Virus record (IMG/VR): IMGVR_UViG_3300035487_000757
Span: 1 to 20,829 of that record
Strand: one strand, 5' to 3'
DNA: 20,829 nt
From: a virus
Translations under genes and position numbers: made by a program
In this document: piece after piece, positions 2 to 13,025 of the stretch
Layout of the letters: every line of letters begins with the position of its first letter
Numbering within the stretch: position 1 is the first letter of the stretch
The notes under the pieces: model-generated
Database searches by the model: none
Seen by the model: the letters and a program-made list of their open reading frames with translations, nothing else
Told to the model about the DNA's origin: nothing

Positions 2-3000
2 TTAAACAGTGCACCTGTTTTAACAGATCCAGGACAACAGACTCTAGATCAAAACACCACTATTCAGTTTGATATTTCGATAAGTGATGCTGATGGTGAT
101 ACTATAACAATTATTGAAGATACTCCTGTTGCAAATGGTACGGTTACATCCACAGCATCAGCATCAGAATTAAGTGTAACATATACACCTACAGTGGGCC
201 ATTCCGGTGCAGATCAATGGATTATTAAAGGTCGCGACTCCAAGGGTGAAGAATCGCCGCTATTAACTATTAACTTTGTTATTGAAGCTGTTCCGTATTT
301 TGAAATGGATGCATCATCATTTGGTAATGATCCAAACTCAATGTGTATTGCGCCTAGGCCCAGCATTTTTTATGGTGGAACAACGTATGCAAACAACGTA
401 GATGAACTTGCTATTGGAGATTTTATTTATACTGATGAAAATTTAAATAATAAGGTTACTGGAACAAACGCGTCCTCACTTATTACTGTTTCTGATACTA
501 CTAAAACTAAAATATTAAATATAGGAGCTGGTGGTCAAATAACCAGCATGCAAGATTGTACAGATACTGGTGATTCTTCTTCTACCGGAGTTTATTACGC
601 TACTAGTGAAAATGCGTTTTGTGACAACGATGTACAGTACATAAGCATATGGTATGATGGCGCTACTGCTGATGTTCCACTAGAGACTTTAGTGGCTAAT
701 AATACACCACTATTTATTAGTGAGTATTATTCAAGCTTATACAATGCAACAGCTGGTGAAACCATATCAGGTACCATAGCAAGTGGTATTTACGGAACTG
801 CGGCATCTAATCCTGATGGCACTCTAGTTCAAACACCTGGACCAGGAGCGGGGTTTTATAAAAGATCTGCACTTGATACATGGGGAGAAATAACACTAGG
901 TGATAAGCTATTTACATGTGATGAAGAAATTCCGCAAAGTATTTTTGCACTAGAAGTAAAATATTTACCAAACACAGTAGACCCTACATTAAATCAATTT
1001 TGTGCCGCCGAACAGTCTAGTCAACTAGTTGATGTTAGTCTTTTTTATAGTTTAAATACTGGTGATGATGCATATACAAGTGTTAAAGAATTGGCACGAT
1101 CCAATAATGCTATATACAAATCTCAATTAGGTGCACAAACACAAGATCAATTAGATTTATTTGAATCTAATATATTCTCAGATACAACTTATAGTGGTGC
1201 TGTTGCATGGGACAATTCGGGTGATGGTAAAACATTAAATTGGTATGGTAACGATACTGATGGATTATTAACTATTGGTGGTAATATATCAGGTGTTGAT
1301 TCTGGCTGGATATCATGTACAGTGTACAACAGTAGACCTGTCATTACTAACAGTGAGATAATATCTGCTCAACCTTCTGTAAATAGTGTGAATGCGTTTT
1401 ATGCGTTTTATTCTTCTAACCCTGAGATTGAGGGACCAGAAGGCACCGGAGACAGTGAAGACTTATTTTGGCCAATATATGTAATAGATGGATTACATAC
1501 ATACAGTTCAGGAGACAGTGGTAGTCATATAAAAGATTTTATAGATACTTTATCGATAGGAAATATAATTGAGTCCAGTAACATCAATGTGTGTCTGACG
1601 TACGCAGCTAGAATAACAGCTGAAGACATGGATGATGCAATATTTTTACTAAAAAACGGCTTAAATTCTCAACAAAGACCAGTTGTTTCTAGTGGCATTG
1701 AACTAGGATTTAGTAGCGAGGAAATTGTTAATGTTTACGCGGCAAATGAAGATGCACAGTGTATTCTCGGTAATAGTGAAAATACATTACAATATACGTT
1801 TCCGTTTGTTGATGGTTATGATTCAATTAAAGCTGGTCCAAATTTTAATACAGAAACTAACTATAGATTAGACAATGTTGCCAAACCTTTATTAAGAACA
1901 AACCCTAAACTATCAGGTAATATTAAAATAGTTACAGATTCAGGTGGATCAGTATATCTTGAAAGTATAAATGCTAATGAAAAATTAGCTGGAACAAAAT
2001 ACAAGAAACAACCTATAAATCCAAATGGTAATTACGGTAAAGATGTTGCAACATTCTTTAAATCTACGGGAACACCATCTGATTTAATTTACTTAACAAA
2101 AAGAGTAAATTCAGATTTAACAGTACATGATTCTTATGATAAGCAAATAGAGGAGGAGTATCAGTATGGTACATCTTATAATTATTCTAAAAATTATGAT
2201 GAGGACTATAAGATATTTGCACCTATGTGGGCAGATAATAATATGCCAAATAATTTTATAATATTTAAAGTTAAAGATCCTAGTGGAGTTGACGCTACGC
2301 ATACTGGTAGTAGTAATTCTGATAGAATTGGAACTATGTTAAAGAATGCTGAAATAATTAAATCTTTTGATTTATCTAAAAAATCAAGCTTAGGTAAATA
2401 CATCAGATCTCATGTTCAACAAGAAACTTTTCCTAAATCACCATTAACAGTATCTTTTAATAAAAATGAAACTACAAATTACAATGGTATTGATTTAAAA
2501 TCCGGTGAGTTAACAAGTAAGGGTGAATATATTTATAAAGACTATGTAGAGACTGACAAGCCACTTATAGAGGCAAATGATTTTATAACGGATGGCTTCA
2601 AGAGAAATGACATGTTATGTGCTAATTTATTAAATTTAGAATTTTTATTTGATGATGATACTTCACAAGAGTATGATGTTAATAGGTATTTTGGACTTTA
2701 TGTTGATACAATAGATTCAGGTGTAGGTGAGATTAATTCTATAAACAATAACAATGTTATTAAGTTTAGTAAAATTACTTCTTTAGTAGACCAATCTGAC
2801 CCAATTACGGCAATTCCTAGTTACCGTCAAATGTCTACCTCACCCACATTAGGTTATGTAAAAATAAATGAAGTTTTTTATAAAATATCTAATACTGGTT
2901 TGTATGATCCTTCAAAACTGGAGGTCAAAGTAGACGATGTTAATAAAACAATAAAAGATACTATTGGTATTTCATATGTTGGTAGATCTGTTAATCTAAC

Positions 3001-6000
3001 TAAAAACGAAGAACAAGGTTTTGATTTTGTTAAGATGTCTATTATAGATGTGCCTGATGGTGGTGATAAAATAGCTGTTTTAGAATCAAGAGAAGAGTCA
3101 TATAAGTTTACGTTTATTAAACACACAGCGGGAGAGAGTATTAATATACAGATGGAAGATTCAAGGGGAACGTATGATCTGTTCAATGAAAGTGATCTAG
3201 GTTATTCGGGATCTCAAAATATTTATTTAACGTTAGGAAATACATTTGAATCAACTGTTTTTTCTATTGAATCACTTTTTAAACCAAACTCTCCGGAACT
3301 AAAGCTTTATCAGAATCAAAATATTATTGGCAACTACCATATTAGGTTTGATTATCAATCAAAGTCTATTACTATAACTGAAGTTAAAACAAACCTGGGC
3401 GATCTAAACATGATAGCGACTGGTGCTATTAGTTCTATAATAAGAGTAGATCAGTTACAACCAAATGTAAATATACAGAATAGAACATATATTTCTAATT
3501 ATACATTACAAAAAGGAACTTACAGTGGAAAACAGTTTTCAAATCAAGGTACGTTTGGTGATATTGCATCTGCATTAGCTGCTACAATTCAAAACGATGA
3601 CAGCAATTTAGAGGCATATAATATTGGACCTGAAATATGGGTAAAAACAAAAATGCCAGGCTATAGATTAAAGCAACAGGTTTTGTTGGTTAACAACAAT
3701 AACGTAACTGACTTTATTAAAGTTGAAAACGAAGATTTAAACAACATATTAAAACTTAAAAGTGGAGATTGGTCTATATTAGAACAATGGAGAGCACATT
3801 ATTTAAACGGAGGGAATACGCGCGGAAGATCTATATTTGTTGATAACACAACATTAAGTGAAATATCTATTGGTGATTATTTAGAAACTAACTATGCAGG
3901 TATTTACAATCAAGTTGTAGATATTGTTGAAGACATAACTGTTCCTAATTCTACTAAATCTAAAATAATACTAACTAGAGATTCTGATATTACCGAGGGA
4001 GAAACACGAGTATTTAACGAGAATGTAGTAAATATCGGTTTGTTTTCTGCATATGATGTGTACGACATGGACTTTGATTTTTATGATACGTCAAACTCAG
4101 AATTAAAAGAATTATCTTTAGAGACTAGAGAAAATATAAATTACGAACCTTATGAAAACGCTATACTAAATATTGATCCTATTACTTCGGAGTTTAATAC
4201 TGTTTTAGGTGCTACGGATATATTTGATGATGATTATGGCTTAGAGCCAGTAAATTACTTTTCTAATTTATCTGGAATATTATCTGAAGAAACAATAGAC
4301 GAAGAATTATCTGAAAATATTACAAGCGAGTTTGATAGATTAAAAGAAAACGAACTAAAAGAGTTTGCTATTAATTCTAGAATAGTTCCTAATATTAATA
4401 AGTGGGTTTTAAAAGATTCATTAAATGTTAAAGAACAACCATATTACTTAAATACTAGTGAAGCATTTGGTAGAACTAATTTTTCTCCAGACATAAGTGC
4501 GTCTGATCGTAACAAAGACGACATGACCCATGAATGGTTTTATATGGATAAAAAACCAAAATATTTAAAATATGATGAGTTAAACCAATGTTTTTCTTAT
4601 ATAAACTTTATAGAAGGATTTGAATTAACAACTGATCTTTTTAAAAGTACTAATAACGATTACTTTGATAAGTTTATGATCTCTGATGGATTTGAAAAGA
4701 ATTTAAATCAAGAAGATATAACTTCAATATTTAAAGAGTTTGGTGAATACACTAGTGGATATTTAAATCCAGATGATGTTAACAACACATTCTTTAAAAC
4801 TGAACTAAAGAAAAAGTACACTCTAATAGATGGCGGAGACACAAATGCATTCGCTAGTACAATATTTAAAGGTTTAAAAGTTGTATTAAAAAATAGAAAG
4901 GAATTTGCCAATAAAACAGCACTTGACTTTGTTAAAAGCAGTGAGTTTAATGGTTATAAATTCAGTATAATGTTAAAAACAAATACTGATGTTGAAACGA
5001 ACGGTATTGATTTTGAGGTTATTCAAAACAAGAAGTTTAAATTTGTAATATTTTTTATAACGATAGATCTTAGTGATTATTGGTTAAAAGGTAATATGAA
5101 TAGAAAAATGCTGTATGAATTAAATCATAAAATTGTATATGATCATGCTAATGAAGATTATATTTACGCAAATACTTCATTTGACGGCGCTATAAATTGG
5201 AATGGTAATGGGATTCAAAATTTCCACAACTTTAGTGGAAGCGGACCATTTGATATGGAAGGTATTCCTCATTTTGACGGAAGCGTACCTAACTTTGATG
5301 ATCAAATTTTGCTGGGAGAGAACGGACTATATGGAGACATTTTAATGGACATTTATCCTGATACTCCAGGAAACAGTATTTATAAGTTTTCTATTTATAA
5401 TGTTGAAGGAGATAACGTTATTAAAATACAAGGTAAGCCAGTAAATATAGACGATCCTAACGACATATTGGATGTAGAGTTTTTGCCTAATTATTTACAG
5501 GATAAAATAAAATATTATTACAAAGATGGTGGTACAAATATACACAAGGTTCTTTTAAATAAGATATCTATTAATAGTGTTACTGAAATGATTAACTTGA
5601 ACGATGATAGTGTTAAGTATACCACTGTTGAAGAAGATGGAACAATAAACAGTAATAGGTTTACTATTAATTTTGAAGATGGAAATGAAATTGTAAAATA
5701 TGCAACTCTTTCAGTAGAGGAAGATAATGATAAACCAAAAAGTTTTAAATTATTTAAAGGTATAATTGGTTACAATTTAATTAAATCTGATGATGCTGAA
5801 TATTATCCATTTTTAATAAGACACAATGGTTCTTATACTGTAAGTTTTAAACCTGTTATAACGTTTACCGACATGTACACTCATTTTAAATCTAATAGAG
5901 TGCAATCTACCGCAGATCAAAGAGAGTCTCGGTTTGAGTCTTTCTTGTATAAGCACTCTTTGTCTAACTCATATGCTTTAAAAACAGCTAAGTCATATTA

Positions 6001-6850
6001 TAATAGATATAATAGATGTGGTACAACATTTAATGTTGGACTTATAATTGATCGCGGAGTACATGATTCAAATTGGGGTATTATTAAAAATCATTTTTAT
6101 CATAAGGTAAATGAAATTAATCCAAATGGAATAACAAAACTATCTGAGTCTTCAGACAAGTTACCACTATATCCTCGTATTAATGAAATTACAATTTCTA
6201 AAAAAGATGTAAATGTGTTTAGATCTTCATGGGATTCAAATTATTATACTAGAGCATTATCTGGTGGAAATTCTGAAGATATTCCAGGAACATTAGACAA
6301 CACTGAAGAAAAATCATATTTTGGATCAACTGTAATGAAGATTGAAAATGAATATGACGTTACTTCTTTTACCTATGAAAATGTAAACAGCCAAGAGGAT
6401 TTAGATTTTATTTTAAAGAATGATATAAATAAATCGGAAGTTATAATATTTGAGGACGAGGATCAAATAGTTGCAGATTTTTATATTACTGATGCTGCAA
6501 TTAGAATGCTTAGAAATGATGGAGTACTTGCTAGAATTAACAGATACGTAAACGTTGAAGATTCTGTTGGAGATAAAACAACACTGGTTGACGATGCCGA
6601 TTTTTATATAAACAAAAATATTATTCAAAAATTTGTAGTTGATTCAATATCATTATTTACTAGAAGTTTTAAAGGTAGAAGTTCTTCTATAACAAATATC
6701 GCTGAAGATATTAGAGCTGGAGGATTCTCACCAGATAATAATTTTAGATTTAAATCACATAAACAAAAGCCTATGAATTTTAGATTGATATATAATAAAA
6801 GATTAGGATATTCTTACGACATCAAACCTATGATAAAAATAAAGTCATAA
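2..6850 (+). CDS. Giant virion structural protein, 5' end outside the window
   Basis: The reading frame is open from base 2 to the TAA at 6848-6850, giving at least 2282 residues; the gene begins upstream of the window. The visible N-terminal ~85 residues have the pattern of a bacterial Ig-like/cadherin-like repeat (NSAPVLTDPG, then DADGDTITI, then TPTVGHSGADQW). The GTG at 194 lies inside this domain and is not a credible start. At residues ~740-900 there is a segment (APMWADNNMPNNFIIFKV through NRYFGLYV) of a type I recall from very large hypothetical structural proteins of marine Bacteroidetes-like phages; this is memory, not a search result. There is no signal peptide, membrane segment or catalytic motif. 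The C-terminus is basic. One base separates it from the collagen-like fibre gene, so it is probably a tail, baseplate or fibre component cotranscribed with the fibres. The exact role is unknown. Confidence 0.8.
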   Translation, partial: LNSAPVLTDPGQQTLDQNTTIQFDISISDADGDTITIIEDTPVANGTVTSTASASELSVTYTPTVGHSGADQWIIKGRDSKGEESPLLTINFVIEAVPYFEMDASSFGNDPNSMCIAPRPSIFYGGTTYANNVDELAIGDFIYTDENLNNKVTGTNASSLITVSDTTKTKILNIGAGGQITSMQDCTDTGDSSSTGVYYATSENAFCDNDVQYISIWYDGATADVPLETLVANNTPLFISEYYSSLYNATAGETISGTIASGIYGTAASNPDGTLVQTPGPGAGFYKRSALDTWGEITLGDKLFTCDEEIPQSIFALEVKYLPNTVDPTLNQFCAAEQSSQLVDVSLFYSLNTGDDAYTSVKELARSNNAIYKSQLGAQTQDQLDLFESNIFSDTTYSGAVAWDNSGDGKTLNWYGNDTDGLLTIGGNISGVDSGWISCTVYNSRPVITNSEIISAQPSVNSVNAFYAFYSSNPEIEGPEGTGDSEDLFWPIYVIDGLHTYSSGDSGSHIKDFIDTLSIGNIIESSNINVCLTYAARITAEDMDDAIFLLKNGLNSQQRPVVSSGIELGFSSEEIVNVYAANEDAQCILGNSENTLQYTFPFVDGYDSIKAGPNFNTETNYRLDNVAKPLLRTNPKLSGNIKIVTDSGGSVYLESINANEKLAGTKYKKQPINPNGNYGKDVATFFKSTGTPSDLIYLTKRVNSDLTVHDSYDKQIEEEYQYGTSYNYSKNYDEDYKIFAPMWADNNMPNNFIIFKVKDPSGVDATHTGSSNSDRIGTMLKNAEIIKSFDLSKKSSLGKYIRSHVQQETFPKSPLTVSFNKNETTNYNGIDLKSGELTSKGEYIYKDYVETDKPLIEANDFITDGFKRNDMLCANLLNLEFLFDDDTSQEYDVNRYFGLYVDTIDSGVGEINSINNNNVIKFSKITSLVDQSDPITAIPSYRQMSTSPTLGYVKINEVFYKISNTGLYDPSKLEVKVDDVNKTIKDTIGISYVGRSVNLTKNEEQGFDFVKMSIIDVPDGGDKIAVLESREESYKFTFIKHTAGESINIQMEDSRGTYDLFNESDLGYSGSQNIYLTLGNTFESTVFSIESLFKPNSPELKLYQNQNIIGNYHIRFDYQSKSITITEVKTNLGDLNMIATGAISSIIRVDQLQPNVNIQNRTYISNYTLQKGTYSGKQFSNQGTFGDIASALAATIQNDDSNLEAYNIGPEIWVKTKMPGYRLKQQVLLVNNNNVTDFIKVENEDLNNILKLKSGDWSILEQWRAHYLNGGNTRGRSIFVDNTTLSEISIGDYLETNYAGIYNQVVDIVEDITVPNSTKSKIILTRDSDITEGETRVFNENVVNIGLFSAYDVYDMDFDFYDTSNSELKELSLETRENINYEPYENAILNIDPITSEFNTVLGATDIFDDDYGLEPVNYFSNLSGILSEETIDEELSENITSEFDRLKENELKEFAINSRIVPNINKWVLKDSLNVKEQPYYLNTSEAFGRTNFSPDISASDRNKDDMTHEWFYMDKKPKYLKYDELNQCFSYINFIEGFELTTDLFKSTNNDYFDKFMISDGFEKNLNQEDITSIFKEFGEYTSGYLNPDDVNNTFFKTELKKKYTLIDGGDTNAFASTIFKGLKVVLKNRKEFANKTALDFVKSSEFNGYKFSIMLKTNTDVETNGIDFEVIQNKKFKFVIFFITIDLSDYWLKGNMNRKMLYELNHKIVYDHANEDYIYANTSFDGAINWNGNGIQNFHNFSGSGPFDMEGIPHFDGSVPNFDDQILLGENGLYGDILMDIYPDTPGNSIYKFSIYNVEGDNVIKIQGKPVNIDDPNDILDVEFLPNYLQDKIKYYYKDGGTNIHKVLLNKISINSVTEMINLNDDSVKYTTVEEDGTINSNRFTINFEDGNEIVKYATLSVEEDNDKPKSFKLFKGIIGYNLIKSDDAEYYPFLIRHNGSYTVSFKPVITFTDMYTHFKSNRVQSTADQRESRFESFLYKHSLSNSYALKTAKSYYNRYNRCGTTFNVGLIIDRGVHDSNWGIIKNHFYHKVNEINPNGITKLSESSDKLPLYPRINEITISKKDVNVFRSSWDSNYYTRALSGGNSEDIPGTLDNTEEKSYFGSTVMKIENEYDVTSFTYENVNSQEDLDFILKNDINKSEVIIFEDEDQIVADFYITDAAIRMLRNDGVLARINRYVNVEDSVGDKTTLVDDADFYINKNIIQKFVVDSISLFTRSFKGRSSSITNIAEDIRAGGFSPDNNFRFKSHKQKPMNFRLIYNKRLGYSYDIKPMIKIKS

Positions 6851-6851
6851 A

Positions 6852-8357
6852 ATGGCAATTAACATTCAAGAGATATTACACCCGAGTGATTCAGACTCCA
6901 TAAAGTTTGGAAAGATCAACTATAATTTTGACCAAATATTGGCAAATGGAGGTGGACCAATTGGTCCTAAGGGTCAAAAAGGAAATCAAGGTCAAGTTGG
7001 CTCAACTGGTTCAAAGGGTGAAAAAGGTGACATTGGTGTTACTGGATCTAAAGGAGATTCTGGAGCAACTGATAGCCCATGGTATAAAGTTCAAATAGAT
7101 GCTAACGGAGACGGGAATAATGAGATATCTATTCTAAAGCCCAAAAGAGGTTCAGATTTAAATCTACCAATTGTTTGGTTAGGAGATTCTACATTTACAG
7201 AGGATGTTGAAAACGGAGAAATAGGAACTAACGCAAGGCTAACTATAGCTAAAGATGCTACTTTTGAAAATTATTCAAAATTTCTTCACGATGAAAATCA
7301 TAGTTTAGTTTTAACTAGTGATATTAGTGGAGCTTTTACTAGATATGTTTTGAAAAATGATTTTGGTAGTAATAATATAGAGTTTGCTGTAATGACAAAC
7401 AAAATATCATTAACTTCTACTACTTCAGAACTGTATTTACAAGGTGCTAGTATTAACTTAAAAACCACAGGGTCTAACAATATTACTTTACAAACTGCGG
7501 GTACTGGATTCTTAGATGTGGATCTTGATGCTACTTTCAAAGGTTATTTAAGATTGCCTTATGGTGGAACTGGACAAAGACCAACTACACCACAAGTAGG
7601 GATGATAAGATTTAATAGCGATTTAGATGTTACTGAAGCATATTATCACAATAGTGGTTCACCAGAATGGAGAGAATTGTGTACAGATTGTGGCAGTGGA
7701 GTAGCTGATAGTATTGGAATTATAGGTGGAGATATTGATGCTAACATTGATGGATCACCGGCTGGAAGTACTATTAGTATTTCAGGTGGAGATATTGATG
7801 CTAATCTCGATGGATCACCAACTGGTGGATGGAATAGTCCATCGCCAACTTCAACAAGTTCAGGTTCAGGTTCAGGTATTGTTTCTCCAACTGCAACGCC
7901 AGTTCCAAATCCAACTGCAACACCAAGTTCAGGTTCAGGTTCAGGTATTGTTTCTCCAACTGCAACGCCAGTTCCAAATCCAACTGCAACGCCAAGTTCA
8001 GGTGGAGGTTCAGGTTCAGGTTCAGTTCCGGTATTAACGATCGGTTCAATAGGAATTGATTCAAATGACGCTGATAACGTTTTAGTGATGTTTAGTAGTT
8101 CTAATATTGGAACATGTAATGGTATTACTGTACAATATAGTACTTCGCCTACAGGTTCAGGTGGATGGACTCAAAACTCTGGAGCTTGTTCATTATCACC
8201 TAGAGTGATAGCAATAGGACAATCAACATACTGTGGTGACACTTATTATTTCAGAGCTATTCAATATGATTCAACACATGGAACGATTACTAGTAGCACG
8301 GTTTCCCATACATTCCCAGCATGCTCAAGCGGAGGCGGTGGTGGATTTGTACGGTAA
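6852..8357 (+). CDS. Collagen-like tail fibre protein
   Basis: A 501-residue fibre. The N-terminus (MAINIQEILHPSDSDSIKFG, then NYNFDQILANGG) is typical of T4-superfamily collar or baseplate fibres, and is followed by 13 uninterrupted Gly-X-Y triplets at residues 35-73, which should form a collagen-type triple helix. Residues ~75-275 look like a beta-rich fibre shaft ending in RPTTPQVGMIRFNSDL and a W-R-E-L segment, a recurrent module near phage fibre tips. Next come Gly/Ser and Pro/Thr linkers with repeated units, then a fibronectin-III-like domain (about residues 395-490) with four cysteines. The protein ends in poly-glycine followed by FVR. It probably binds a surface receptor, or links to the next gene's fibre with which it shares linker modules. 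It starts one base after the giant structural gene. Fibre identity is well supported; the attachment point on the virion is not. Confidence 0.82.
   Translation: MAINIQEILHPSDSDSIKFGKINYNFDQILANGGGPIGPKGQKGNQGQVGSTGSKGEKGDIGVTGSKGDSGATDSPWYKVQIDANGDGNNEISILKPKRGSDLNLPIVWLGDSTFTEDVENGEIGTNARLTIAKDATFENYSKFLHDENHSLVLTSDISGAFTRYVLKNDFGSNNIEFAVMTNKISLTSTTSELYLQGASINLKTTGSNNITLQTAGTGFLDVDLDATFKGYLRLPYGGTGQRPTTPQVGMIRFNSDLDVTEAYYHNSGSPEWRELCTDCGSGVADSIGIIGGDIDANIDGSPAGSTISISGGDIDANLDGSPTGGWNSPSPTSTSSGSGSGIVSPTATPVPNPTATPSSGSGSGIVSPTATPVPNPTATPSSGGGSGSGSVPVLTIGSIGIDSNDADNVLVMFSSSNIGTCNGITVQYSTSPTGSGGWTQNSGACSLSPRVIAIGQSTYCGDTYYFRAIQYDSTHGTITSSTVSHTFPACSSGGGGGFVR
6954..7070 (+). repeat. Collagen-like Gly-X-Y repeat region
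   Basis: Thirteen consecutive Gly-X-Y codon triplets, rich in GSK, GEK and GDx, encode residues 35-73 of the fibre. Such stretches trimerise fibres in phages and bacteria. The DNA copies are diverged, so the repeat is clear at protein level rather than as a DNA repeat. Confidence 0.9.
7725..7819 (+). repeat. Two-copy repeat with 60-bp period (GGDIDAN-DGSP module)
   Basis: A roughly 35-bp unit beginning ggtggagatattgatgctaa occurs at 7725-7759 and 7785-7819, differing at three neighbouring bases. It encodes GGDIDANIDGSP and GGDIDANLDGSP in the fibre linker, probably a recent in-frame duplication of a 20-residue module. Confidence 0.8.
7857..7994 (+). repeat. Perfect-register 69-bp tandem repeat in fibre linker
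   Basis: Two head-to-tail 69-bp units lie at 7857-7925 and 7926-7994 and differ at a single base near the end (cacca versus gcca). Each encodes a 23-residue module containing SGSGSGIVSP and TATPVPNPTATP. The near identity implies recent duplication or gene conversion. Part of the unit recurs in the next gene at 8649-8692. Confidence 0.92.
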
Positions 8358-8414: not shown

Positions 8415-10106
8415 ATGGCAGCAAACGATTACACAAGAACGGTCTCAATTACACCAGTAAGTACTGGTTATACTTGGGATACACCTCCAAGTTGGGTTAC
8501 AATTACTCAGCAAGGTAGTACTAATGATTGGACAATCAGAATCTTAGCTAACGCTGGTGCGGCTAGAAGTGCAACACTTACAGTTAGACACAATAATACA
8601 ACGACAGTTGATACTATTGATGTAACACAAGCGGGTAGTGCAGGAGCACCAACTGCAACGCCAGTTCCAGGTCCAACTGCAACACCAGAGCCATTTGGAT
8701 CATATGATAGTATTAATAACACATTGAACCCAGTTCAAGAAGGTTATTCGGCAACATTTATAGTTAACACCACTAACATAGCAGTGGGTGTAATTCCAAC
8801 TTACGAGTTAGTACCTGTATCTGGAACCTTTGTATCTGCAGATGTTGTAGGAGGAGCTTTAAGTGGTAATATGGGTGCTATTGATTCTAATGGTAAATCT
8901 ACGATAACTATTACATTTGCACAAGATCAGACACTGGAAGGTACTGAGGAATACATATTTAGAGTTACAGGAGACAATTCTGGTCAATCTAATACAGGAT
9001 TACCTCAATCACAAACTGGTAGACAAATTTTAGATACTTCAACTGGATCTCCTATATGGAACTCAGTTGTTCTCTTTGACATTAACGGTACTCAGAATAC
9101 TAATGTACAAGGTATGAATGAAGGATTTCAGGACAATTATACCGCAGTACTTACTGGAGACAGTAGACCTATAGGAGAAACAATATACTGGCAAATGGAT
9201 TTCACTAGTTACACTGGTATCTTAGGCCAATCAGCAGCAAGCGCTGCAGATTTTGTGAATACATCTGGCTCGTTTGTGATGGGAGTAACGGATGCGACAC
9301 ACAACCCTAATGGTGATTCAAACATGGGTGTTTTCAATATAATGGCAATAGCCGATGGCACAACTGAAGGTAAAGAAGGTTTTGGAGTAAACATTTATTC
9401 CGATGCTGGAATGACCACTCCGATAACATATCCTAACACCACTACTGTTAAGATAACAAATCATGGTATTAATGATACTTCACAGGGTTCAGGTGGAGGT
9501 TCAGGACTATCACCAACACCACTACCACCAACATCAACACCAACACCGACTTCAACGAGCGGCGGCGGAGGCGGCGGAGGAGGTTGTCACTTAGCTGGAG
9601 AAATAATAACTATGGCTAACGGCACCACTAAACTGATAGAAAACATACAGGTGGGTGATAACTTATTATCTATTGATTTTGACGGACTTGATGGAAATGA
9701 TGACAGATCATGGTTAGGGTGGAAGAGAACACAAGAAACACTAGCTTCGGAATACACGAACACTGTTGTTACTAGCGTTAGAGTAGATGTGTTTAACAAA
9801 TATTATAACATAAACAATGGATTACTTAAAATTACAGAAGAACATCCTGTTTTAGTAAAAGACAATTCTGGAGATATTTATTTCAAGCACACAAGAGACG
9901 TTGTTGCTTCTGATTGGCTATTGAATGAAAGTAATGAATGGATAGATATTACATCCATAGAATTAATAGAAACATCTGAATTCACAACATACGCATTGGA
10001 TGTTGAAGAATCTGATGTATACTTTGCTAACACCGTACTGGTACACAACGTTGAGGTTGATCTAGAGGATGGAGATAAAGGATTTTCTGAAGAAGGCTTT
10101 GCTTAA
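8415..10106 (+). CDS. BACON-domain fibre/adhesin with C-terminal Hint domain
   Basis: A 563-residue multidomain protein. Residues ~5-76 form a BACON domain (PPSWVTITQQGS, then SATLTVRHNN and IDVTQAG), a fold found mostly in Bacteroidetes proteins and their phages and linked to glycan or mucin binding. A Pro/Thr linker (79-93) follows. Residues ~94-210 look Calx-beta-like (TITITFAQDQTLEGTEEYIF), and a second, weaker beta-sandwich spans ~215-355. After a Pro/Ser/Thr/Gly linker ending in eight glycines, residues 391-545 form a Hint domain: Cys391, TEEH at 474-477 and a terminal His544-Asn545, followed by an 18-residue acidic tail. The protein is probably a host-binding fibre whose C-terminus is removed or rearranged by the Hint domain. 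The residue after Asn545 is Val rather than Cys/Ser/Thr, so cleavage is likelier than standard splicing. Confidence 0.85.
   Translation: MAANDYTRTVSITPVSTGYTWDTPPSWVTITQQGSTNDWTIRILANAGAARSATLTVRHNNTTTVDTIDVTQAGSAGAPTATPVPGPTATPEPFGSYDSINNTLNPVQEGYSATFIVNTTNIAVGVIPTYELVPVSGTFVSADVVGGALSGNMGAIDSNGKSTITITFAQDQTLEGTEEYIFRVTGDNSGQSNTGLPQSQTGRQILDTSTGSPIWNSVVLFDINGTQNTNVQGMNEGFQDNYTAVLTGDSRPIGETIYWQMDFTSYTGILGQSAASAADFVNTSGSFVMGVTDATHNPNGDSNMGVFNIMAIADGTTEGKEGFGVNIYSDAGMTTPITYPNTTTVKITNHGINDTSQGSGGGSGLSPTPLPPTSTPTPTSTSGGGGGGGGCHLAGEIITMANGTTKLIENIQVGDNLLSIDFDGLDGNDDRSWLGWKRTQETLASEYTNTVVTSVRVDVFNKYYNINNGLLKITEEHPVLVKDNSGDIYFKHTRDVVASDWLLNESNEWIDITSIELIETSEFTTYALDVEESDVYFANTVLVHNVEVDLEDGDKGFSEEGFA
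8649..8692 (+). repeat. Copy of the PTATP linker module shared with the upstream fibre gene
   Basis: This segment holds the 21-mer ccaactgcaacgccagttcca in two parts of the linker context: the full 21-mer, then ggt in place of aat, then ccaactgcaacacca. It matches the 69-bp repeat unit at 7857-7925 in the upstream gene almost base for base. It encodes PTATPVPGPTATP between the BACON and Calx-beta-like domains. Confidence 0.8.
9585..10049 (+). other. Hint / bacterial intein-like (BIL) domain coding segment
   Basis: It encodes residues 391-545 of the fibre. Block A is CHLAGEIITMANGTTKLIE with VGDNLLS after it; block B is KITEEHPVLV, carrying the T-x-x-H signature; block G is ANTVLVHN. At about 155 residues it fits a mini-intein or BIL domain and leaves little room for a homing endonuclease. 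No LAGLIDADG or HNH motif is visible. Catalytic residues for N-S acyl shift (Cys391, Thr474, His477) and Asn cyclisation (His544, Asn545) all appear to be present. Confidence 0.85.
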
Positions 10107-10961: not shown

Positions 10962-13025
10962 ATGGCACAATCATCAAGATATTATTATTTAGATTCTGAT
11001 ATTTTATTAGAATTTATTTACCACGATCAAGGTAATCCTTCTAAATATCAAATAGAAGTAGATGACAATGGTAGCGAGGTAAAATTCTTAGACACTGTAA
11101 AGGGTAATACTACACAAAAGAGACACTTAATTAATGAATTAGGAAGCGCGGTTGTAAACTTTGACGTAACCGAAGTTTCTGGATACTTATCTGTAGAAAA
11201 CTTTGCATCAAGAACGTTGCTTTTACAAAACGGGAAAACTTATAAATTTAATTTAAGCCAATTAACTAATGCAAGTTTATTTGCAATTAGTGGATCTTTA
11301 GGAATATACTCTTATTCTGACGTGACTAAGATTGCTCAGTTTACACCAACACAAAATGGACTAGTTGATTATTCATATGAAGGTTTAATTGGAGGTAAAA
11401 TAATAGTTGATACTAGGGCTAATCCATTATTTGCTAACCCTGACGAAAATACAGGTAATGATATTAATCAAACTATTGGAAGATATCATGCTGTAAACAC
11501 AGATAACACTAACACAAAATACGCTCTTTTAGGATATGATTCAACTGGAGATTATGACATGTTTAATTATGTTAATAATAATGTTGAATGGCTGGGTGGA
11601 AACGAAACTGATCTTTTAAATAATCAAACTAACGCAACTGACAATATTAATTTTATTAAATATGACAGTATTAGATTACACCTTAGAAGTGGATATAGCT
11701 TTGCAGCTAGAGATTACGAAGGGTTTTTGTTTGAAATAGCAACTAAAAGAAATTCAGGTGTTAGAAATAATTTAACACAATTAGTATATTTAAATACCAG
11801 TAATTATGAATACGCTAATCCTAAACCATTTATTTTAGGAGAAACTCTTTATAGTAAATTTATAGATCTTAAAGTTCCTACGCTTGTAGATCAGAACGAA
11901 GAATTTAATGATTTATTTTATGGTGACGGTACAGTTGGCTCTAGTGATTTAGATCCTACTTCTAATTATGAAATGTCGTTTAAATTAATAGATCAATTAC
12001 AGACTATTAATGGATTTGATTATTTTATTACGGGTGAAGAAAATAGTTTTACTATTTCTAGAGAAGATGAATTTCAAGATTTTACAGTTGTAGTAGAAGA
12101 TGCAACAGACGGTGATTACTTTAAAATATATGGAGAAAAAGATAATTCTATAGGTGCATTCGAAGCATATATATTAAATCAAATAACTACAACGTCTGAT
12201 GATATAATTGTAATGTTTGATGTTGATATATTTGAAACTATAGGAAGTGTTGATATTAAAACGTTTCAAACGTCATATACACAATATGAAGATTTCAATA
12301 CGCCAATAGTTTTTAGACCTGTTATAATTAACAGTGCCACAGCTTCTAGTTTTTCTATAGATATAACTATGAGAATATGGAACCAAACTGACAATACACA
12401 GATTGTGAAGAGAGCTAGTTTAACTTTATCTCAAGCTGCTAAATATGGTAAGAAATTAAATAAGTTAAAAATTAATTCTCCAAACCAATTAACAGAAGTT
12501 TATAATGTTTTACCAGAATTATCTTCTAATAAAATAATTGCAGGTATATTTACAGATAATCTACCAAAAAGTATAAAATATGTTCCTACATTTATAGAAA
12601 GACATAATGTTATTGCTTCTAAATCAAGAGTAGTATTTGATACTTCTAACGAAAATATAATGACTCAAAACATCACAGAAGTAGATACTTCAGATTTTGT
12701 GAATGAAAATAAATTGGTTATTGATATACCTCCTTTTACTTCATATTACAAGTTTGTGATTGCTAAAAAGAAAGCTGATGATGTAGAATTTGTATCTTTT
12801 ACAAATGCAGAAAATGTAATAATGACATTTGGAGATGGTAAACAAAAATTAAAATTCAATCACATATCTAATAAGGACATAGATATGGGAGAGGGCGAAG
12901 TCTTATTTAAAATAAGTGAGGCAAATGCCAATACTATTAGAGGTATGAAAAACACTAAATTTTATATTAGTGTTAATAATGGTGTAGATGAGAATATGAT
13001 AATGTCCGGTAAATTTAAAGTATAA
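10962..13025 (+). CDS. Probable virion structural protein (tail/baseplate), unnamed
   Basis: A 687-residue protein without signal peptide, membrane segment or enzymatic motif. The composition is beta-rich and Asn/Asp/Thr/Tyr-heavy, as in the giant protein upstream. The N-terminus (SSRYYYLDSDILLEFIY) and a segment around residues 228-300 (DSIRLHLRSGYSF, then GFLFEIATK and LGETLYSKFIDLKVP) resemble hypothetical structural proteins I recall from marine T4-like phages. The second half looks like several beta-sandwich units and ends in VNNGVDENMIMSGKFKV. It sits 14 bases after the preceding gene and 7 bases before a tail-tube-like gene, supporting a tail or baseplate role. No gp number can be assigned from sequence alone. 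Confidence 0.6.
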   Translation: MAQSSRYYYLDSDILLEFIYHDQGNPSKYQIEVDDNGSEVKFLDTVKGNTTQKRHLINELGSAVVNFDVTEVSGYLSVENFASRTLLLQNGKTYKFNLSQLTNASLFAISGSLGIYSYSDVTKIAQFTPTQNGLVDYSYEGLIGGKIIVDTRANPLFANPDENTGNDINQTIGRYHAVNTDNTNTKYALLGYDSTGDYDMFNYVNNNVEWLGGNETDLLNNQTNATDNINFIKYDSIRLHLRSGYSFAARDYEGFLFEIATKRNSGVRNNLTQLVYLNTSNYEYANPKPFILGETLYSKFIDLKVPTLVDQNEEFNDLFYGDGTVGSSDLDPTSNYEMSFKLIDQLQTINGFDYFITGEENSFTISREDEFQDFTVVVEDATDGDYFKIYGEKDNSIGAFEAYILNQITTTSDDIIVMFDVDIFETIGSVDIKTFQTSYTQYEDFNTPIVFRPVIINSATASSFSIDITMRIWNQTDNTQIVKRASLTLSQAAKYGKKLNKLKINSPNQLTEVYNVLPELSSNKIIAGIFTDNLPKSIKYVPTFIERHNVIASKSRVVFDTSNENIMTQNITEVDTSDFVNENKLVIDIPPFTSYYKFVIAKKKADDVEFVSFTNAENVIMTFGDGKQKLKFNHISNKDIDMGEGEVLFKISEANANTIRGMKNTKFYISVNNGVDENMIMSGKFKV

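Follow-up and report, generated by a model that had tools for sequence, protein, structure and literature searches.

What does a Hint (intein-like) domain do at the very C-terminus of a phage fibre? The question is raised by a 563-residue, fibre-like protein encoded at positions 8415..10106 (+ strand; open reading frame and translation) of the window, the 20,829-nucleotide stretch of IMG/VR record IMGVR_UViG_3300035487_000757 analysed here. The source of the window is a marine bacterial virus, and its gene content is T4-like, with a gp32-like ssDNA-binding protein, a RuvC-like resolvase, and a tail-tube-like protein. A preliminary description had proposed that the Hint domain is intact and either cleaves itself or attaches the fibre to another amine, which would be an unusual maturation or attachment mechanism for a phage.

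The protein starts with a BACON domain, followed by variable modules, a glycine linker, the C-terminal Hint domain, and an 18-residue tail, a layout that is repeated in L002, L004, L011, L012, L099, L103, and other relatives. The BACON domain (residues 23-73, 8481..8633, + strand) gives a weak match in the window (Pfam ID PF13004, E 0.0059), and the match in L103 exceeds the curated cutoff (26.5 versus 25 bits). The first ~75 residues are modelled by AlphaFold2 (AF2) as confident beta strands, in a model that covers the N-terminal 389 residues and is of low quality past the BACON domain (mean pLDDT 45); the region between the BACON and Hint domains is made up of variable Pro/Thr/Gly-rich, low-complexity modules. 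The neighbouring gene (6852..8357, + strand) encodes a collagen-like fibre with a baseplate-side N-terminal module (tail-fibre PHROGs, Pfam Collagen), and in L004 the counterpart of the 563-residue protein and the preceding collagen-like tail-fibre gene have modules in common. From its fibre-type domains and its position in the tail gene block, features that mark tail fibres and receptor-binding proteins, we infer that the 563-residue protein is a phage fibre. The BACON domain and a distant Flavobacterium-phage match of a neighbouring gene suggest a Bacteroidota host. A scan for promoters and terminators found nothing notable. Ahead of the fibre genes, a 2,218-residue protein (194-6850) has no Pfam match and a C-terminus that is strongly conserved across syntenic loci. 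L004 carries, adjoining the RuvC-like gene, a 245-residue open reading frame (11040-11777) that by eye resembles a homing endonuclease and is absent in the window and in L002.

The Hint domain spans Cys391 to Asn545 (9585..10049; this and the following features are on the + strand), as supported by the AF2 model, structure alignment, and the family profile. It is immediately preceded by eight glycines (G383-G390, 9561..9584), the last of which, Gly390, would be the residue expected to carry the thioester. Cys391 (9585..9587), Hint residue 1 and putative nucleophile of the N-S acyl shift, block B with Thr474-Glu-Glu-His477 (9834..9845), and His544-Asn545 (10044..10049), the candidate pair for Asn cyclisation, all lie exactly where the preliminary description had placed them. 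The tail, Val546-Ala563 (10050..10103), comprises the last 18 residues before the stop, VEVDLEDGDKGFSEEGFA; it is acidic (7 D/E), as had been described, but its only lysine, Lys555 (10077..10079), at +10 from Asn545, had been overlooked. This residue is our proposed acceptor.

In a single-sequence Pfam scan the domain gives only weak matches under the curated cutoffs (Intein_splicing, 1.2e-4; Hint_2, 0.016). The profile of its relatives, however, matches the BIL domain of Clostridium thermocellum (CthBIL, 2lwy) at 6e-12, and the profile search that had been called for, run with a 48-sequence family profile, matches the same domain in two stretches with an E value of 3e-16. The AF2 model based on this 48-sequence alignment has a pLDDT of 91 and a pTM of 0.85. 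Its closest structure is BIL2 of the BUBL1 polyubiquitin locus of Tetrahymena thermophila (6y75; VIA Z 20.9, rmsd 1.7 over 139 residues, 29% identity), followed by 2lwy (Z 18.8) and many inteins and Hedgehog (Z 14-18, Hedgehog 17.5). The Hint fold, on which the earlier reading had been made to depend, is thus present in the prediction, with Z scores of 14-21 to BIL and intein structures; the position of the tail is modelled without confidence (pLDDT about 50). The observation is confirmed: by every feature examined computationally, the C-terminal 173 residues are a type-A-BIL-like Hint domain.

Several better-known relatives share this fold. Inteins, such as those of phage terminases, have the same motifs and were found in the same scan as the terminal Hint domains, but they are inserted in conserved proteins, with a Cys/Ser/Thr at +1 and a long C-extein. 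The Val at +1, the 18-residue tail without a C-extein, and the variable host protein rule out an ordinary or class 1 intein. The Hedgehog Hog domain is likewise a C-terminal Hint domain that follows a Gly-Cys junction and transfers the N-flank to a nucleophile, but there a sterol-binding region follows, whereas the window has His-Asn and a tail lysine; with only 18 residues after the domain, there is no room for a sterol-recognition region, and the Hog assignment was rejected. The PT-HINT domains of RHS/Maf polymorphic toxins are related but lie before a C-terminal domain, and no toxin domain follows here. The type-A BIL domain of C. thermocellum, by comparison, has Cys1, TxxH, His-Asn, no nucleophile at +1, and variable host proteins, all of which the window shares with it. 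Members of the type-A BIL class have His-Asn but no nucleophile at +1, and they cleave themselves or use a free amine for ligation (PMC4031507). The expectation drawn earlier from Val546, that normal splicing would lack its nucleophile and that cleavage or transfer to an amine should take its place, agrees with this class. BIL2 (6y75, 6tmm) also has an N-terminal Cys and a C-terminal Asn, as well as an acceptor lysine downstream; in BIL2, the lysine lies in a large downstream domain and the flanks are ubiquitin-like, whereas in the window the candidate acceptor lies in an 18-residue tail and the N-flank is a phage fibre of BACON, low-complexity, and variable modules.

Conservation was assessed in 66 family representatives at 90% identity. 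Cys1 is kept in 62, His154 in 65, Asn155 in 64, and Thr84 and His87 in 61 each; Thr84/His87 and the D-x-Y motif were part of the search patterns, which leaves Cys1, His-Asn, the +1 position, and the tail as the only features unaffected by ascertainment. Gly precedes the domain in 37/66 members, and the PT-HINT family of Pfam, PF07591, matches 26 of 48. At +1, the 65 tails show K (19), T (15), V (13), A (5), L (3), I (3), G (2), Q (2), S (1), F (1), and R (1), and never Cys. Read from the alignment, this purifying selection on catalysis, with none for a +1 nucleophile, is the type-A BIL signature (PMC4031507, PMC7765530). It is very improbable that the domain is an inactive folded remnant or a decoy, retained as a structural cap: catalytic residues are lost in a few family members (L006, L049, L066, L068, and L073), but Cys1, His, and Asn are the sole invariant columns in 48 diverse members and are conserved in at least 90% of the 66 representatives.

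Scanning viral contigs with the Hint domain alone revealed relatives that range in identity from 67% to about 27%, and about 124 of the 130 open reading frames with a Hint match terminate in the domain. A genome scan with alignment A5 yielded matches, and one with alignment A3 yielded none. In T4-like marine phages and others, fibre or virion proteins end in Hint domains that share these motifs and are followed by very short tails (1-22 residues), which also differ in sequence. The domain is carried in the window's own lineage, by short virion-anchor proteins (L021 and L026), and by collagen-like proteins in phage NCTB and in jumbo phages that infect Erwinia, Dickeya, and Yersinia. Shewanella prophages contribute fibres that begin with a Pfam Phage_tail_fib match, and bacterial genomes encode several carriers as well; relatives matched phrog_38766 ("virion structural protein") and PF12571. 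Many phages and prophages that are unrelated to one another have the layout, so that it is not peculiar to this phage, which corrects the preliminary description. Recurrence and conservation also counter the idea of a one-off oddity or pseudogene. The Shewanella prophage tail fibres (L170, L172, and L173) have Hint tails SNKD or SDTAKP, and S. surugensis has two copies of a Hint-ended prophage tail fibre.

Syntenic loci, fetched via the neighbour gene, carry the Hint domain on the BACON protein in 21 cases (window included), carry it on the collagen-like anchor fibre in 4 (L112, L113, L127, and L132), and lack it in 43. Two Hint domains within one fibre cassette were never seen in this survey. 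The carrier gene is hypervariable, and the presence or absence of the domain differs between close relatives. Because it is optional and found on either carrier, one per cassette, the Hint domain has a function of its own as a module, swaps between two carrier fibres, and is not part of one fibre's fold. As part of the lineage does without the domain, the proposed maturation cannot be a general step for this fibre.

Other arrangements were seen outside this cassette pattern. In L046 (4074-5855), L055 (4095-5855), and L070 (2782-4974), a single phage protein terminates in two or three tandem Hint domains, the last intact copy of which ends HN-K; in L070, HN-K runs straight into the Cys of a degenerate third Hint. 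Free-standing Hint-like proteins of ~155 residues without the N-terminal Cys and the block B His have their genes immediately after that of an intact Hint fibre in L006 (744-1205), L066 (5453-5917), and L073 (5453-5917) and are possible partners or regulators. In L021 (3-1592) and L026 (2-2251), the fibre upstream of the short Hint protein contains an internal degenerate Hint-like stretch, and by eye its C-terminus is Peptidase_S74-type chaperone-like. A second Hint-bearing protein in the virus record of L113 (L367) is built of TSKSTTTSWTTTW-like repeats and has a ~40-residue Cys-containing tail with lysine at +2.

The tails themselves follow one rule. A lysine lies within 10 residues after His-Asn in 77/77 distinct intact terminal domains, including those with tails of only 1-4 residues (K, TGK, KIAL, VHDK, GKGE, and SNKD). 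With clustering at 90, 70, 50, and 40% identity, the lysine is present in 66/66, 47/47, 33/33, and 21/21 clusters, against 27, 18, 12, and 7 expected from equal-length C-termini of other open reading frames in the same loci (log10 P -27, -21, -16, and -10, nominal because the clusters are related). Exactly one lysine is found in 30 of the 33 clusters at 50% identity. For these 33, the C-termini of 1,913 other open reading frames predict 12.0 (nominal log10 P -15.9), those of 828 longer ones 13.3 (nominal log10 P -14.4), and residue permutation gave 0/20,000.

The lysine hypothesis was written down before new data were collected with a DNA pattern blind to the +1 position and the tail and from bacterial genomes. 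All 12 distinct tails first read thereafter have the lysine: K (L292), TFHDK and KGAAS... (L199), FAQPKDQA, KRDIG..., AADEVISK..., KDIP, TKVDPLE, VK, NKPLDPPTNP, KSNQNK, and RKGEAG... (L367). Domains without His-Asn mostly lack it (L068, SETE; L049, ET; L332, TSDSYW), as does one free-standing degenerate Hint-like domain without Cys1 (tail RV); the degenerate exceptions with lysine are the tails KIS and KVD of free-standing Hint-like proteins and L087, where Asn is replaced by Asp.

The idea that the lysine simply reflects AT-rich codons, the composition of C-termini, or the Shine-Dalgarno sequence of the next gene was rejected on several grounds: the control C-termini predict only 12-13 of 33, the rule is also valid in loci of 50% GC, and the lysine keeps within +10 of His-Asn at no fixed distance from the stop. 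In 14 tails of 13-22 residues the lysine is still within +10, which ties it to the active site rather than to the stop codon. Nor is the lysine a general BIL feature, as only 7/15 internal cellular PT-HINT domains have one within +10 (Fisher p 1.7e-5). Internal PT-HINT domains of RHS/Maf-type proteins (L353-L362, L345-L351, L336, L337, and L171) have a cysteine within +10 in 12/15, possibly a different nucleophile solution just after His-Asn. Arginine is depleted in the 33 clusters (4 tails versus 10.5 expected) and does not stand in for lysine, so that it seems to be the amine of the tail lysine, not its charge, that matters. In the part of the literature searched, which took in few subscription journals, we found neither a C-terminal Hint domain reported for a phage fibre nor a tail lysine described as obligatory, for type-A BILs or otherwise, and as far as this search goes the combination of a C-terminal cap position on phage fibres with an obligatory tail lysine is undescribed.

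The chief alternative to lysine transfer would be plain self-cleavage, in which the thioester is hydrolysed and/or Asn545 cyclises, the Hint domain is lost, and the fibre ends in poly-Gly, with the lysine serving charge, stability, or folding. The products of type-A BILs come mostly from cleavage (PMC4031507), and Hint-less fibres of the same lineage often have Gly/Ser-rich C-termini, which a cleaved product would resemble. But hydrolysis requires no tail, and a lysine that is invariant even in one-residue tails, with arginine no substitute, would go unexplained; we regard plain self-cleavage as unlikely. The invariant lysine instead points to a specific acceptor intrinsic to the protein, rather than to plain hydrolysis or to an undefined amine of the host; the preliminary description, which foresaw transfer to an amine, is partly supported in this form.

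From the observed domain, motifs, recurrence, exchange between carriers, and lysine rule, we infer the chemistry, its timing, and its role in the virion. Our favoured reading, which we consider probable, though by no means certain, from the sequence pattern and the analogy to BIL2, is that the Hint domain processes the fibre end in cis. First, Cys391 would attack Gly390 and form a thioester at the poly-glycine end, as the intact fold and motifs imply. The side-chain amine of Lys555 would then take over the acyl group in place of a +1 Cys/Ser/Thr, giving a Gly-Lys isopeptide; this step is proposed because the tail lysine is invariant and because BIL2 is reported to form an isopeptide with a lysine amine when it splices and, without ATP, to conjugate its N-flank to other substrates (PMC8616854). 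Finally, Asn545 would cyclise and release the Hint domain, leaving a mature fibre whose poly-Gly end is joined via the lysine to a short peptide. The pattern suggests that the fibre end could be cut and rejoined to the tail lysine with neither an enzyme nor an energy source.

The Hint fold holds both splice junctions side by side, so that a flexible tail could plausibly bring a lysine at +1 to +10 within reach of the thioester. Against lysine transfer, it can be said that the lysine stands anywhere from +1 to +10, which needs such a flexible tail, and that the end product of an HN-K tail, a fibre plus a single lysine, is odd. Type-A BILs, moreover, can ligate through the alpha-amine without any lysine (PMC4031507). 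In this proposed mechanism, Asn545 would cyclise first and the freed tail amine would attack the thioester, yielding a fibre ending GGG-VEVDLEDGDKG...; since it requires no lysine and leaves +1 unconstrained, and since ligating a one-residue tail would be pointless, we think it improbable here.

If Asn cyclisation is slow, or if the lysine comes from a neighbouring chain, the transfer to lysine could instead produce a covalent cross-link between fibre chains. The rival intermolecular version, in which the poly-Gly end is joined to the lysine of another chain (a trimer neighbour, a virion protein, or the host surface) as a cross-link or anchor, fits the conjugation of separate substrates reported for BIL2 (PMC8616854), the many collagen-like, probably trimeric carriers, and the finding that the Hint domain, at one per cassette, moves between the BACON accessory gene and the anchor fibre. 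The acceptor in the protein's own tail suffices and is always there, however, and the conserved His-Asn would sever the tail from the Hint domain and undo tail-mediated links, which makes this version still less likely than plain self-cleavage.

More broadly, and only tentatively, we suggest that phages, and some bacterial proteins too, may possess a lysine ligase that is self-contained and needs no ATP: a C-terminal Hint domain with its own lysine tag, which would rewire fibre ends by isopeptide bonds and so cap or cross-link the chains. Virus maturation would then have its first case of a Hint domain used in this way. Chemically, the invariant tail lysine translates into one precise prediction, a Gly-epsilon-Lys bond. 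What BIL domains do biologically has been unclear; they would gain a recurring role in processing the ends of phage adhesins. If true, this would be a ligation tag that occurs naturally and works without an enzyme, and fibres would mature in a new way, similar in logic to autocleaving C-terminal chaperones and HK97-type cross-linking but different in chemistry.
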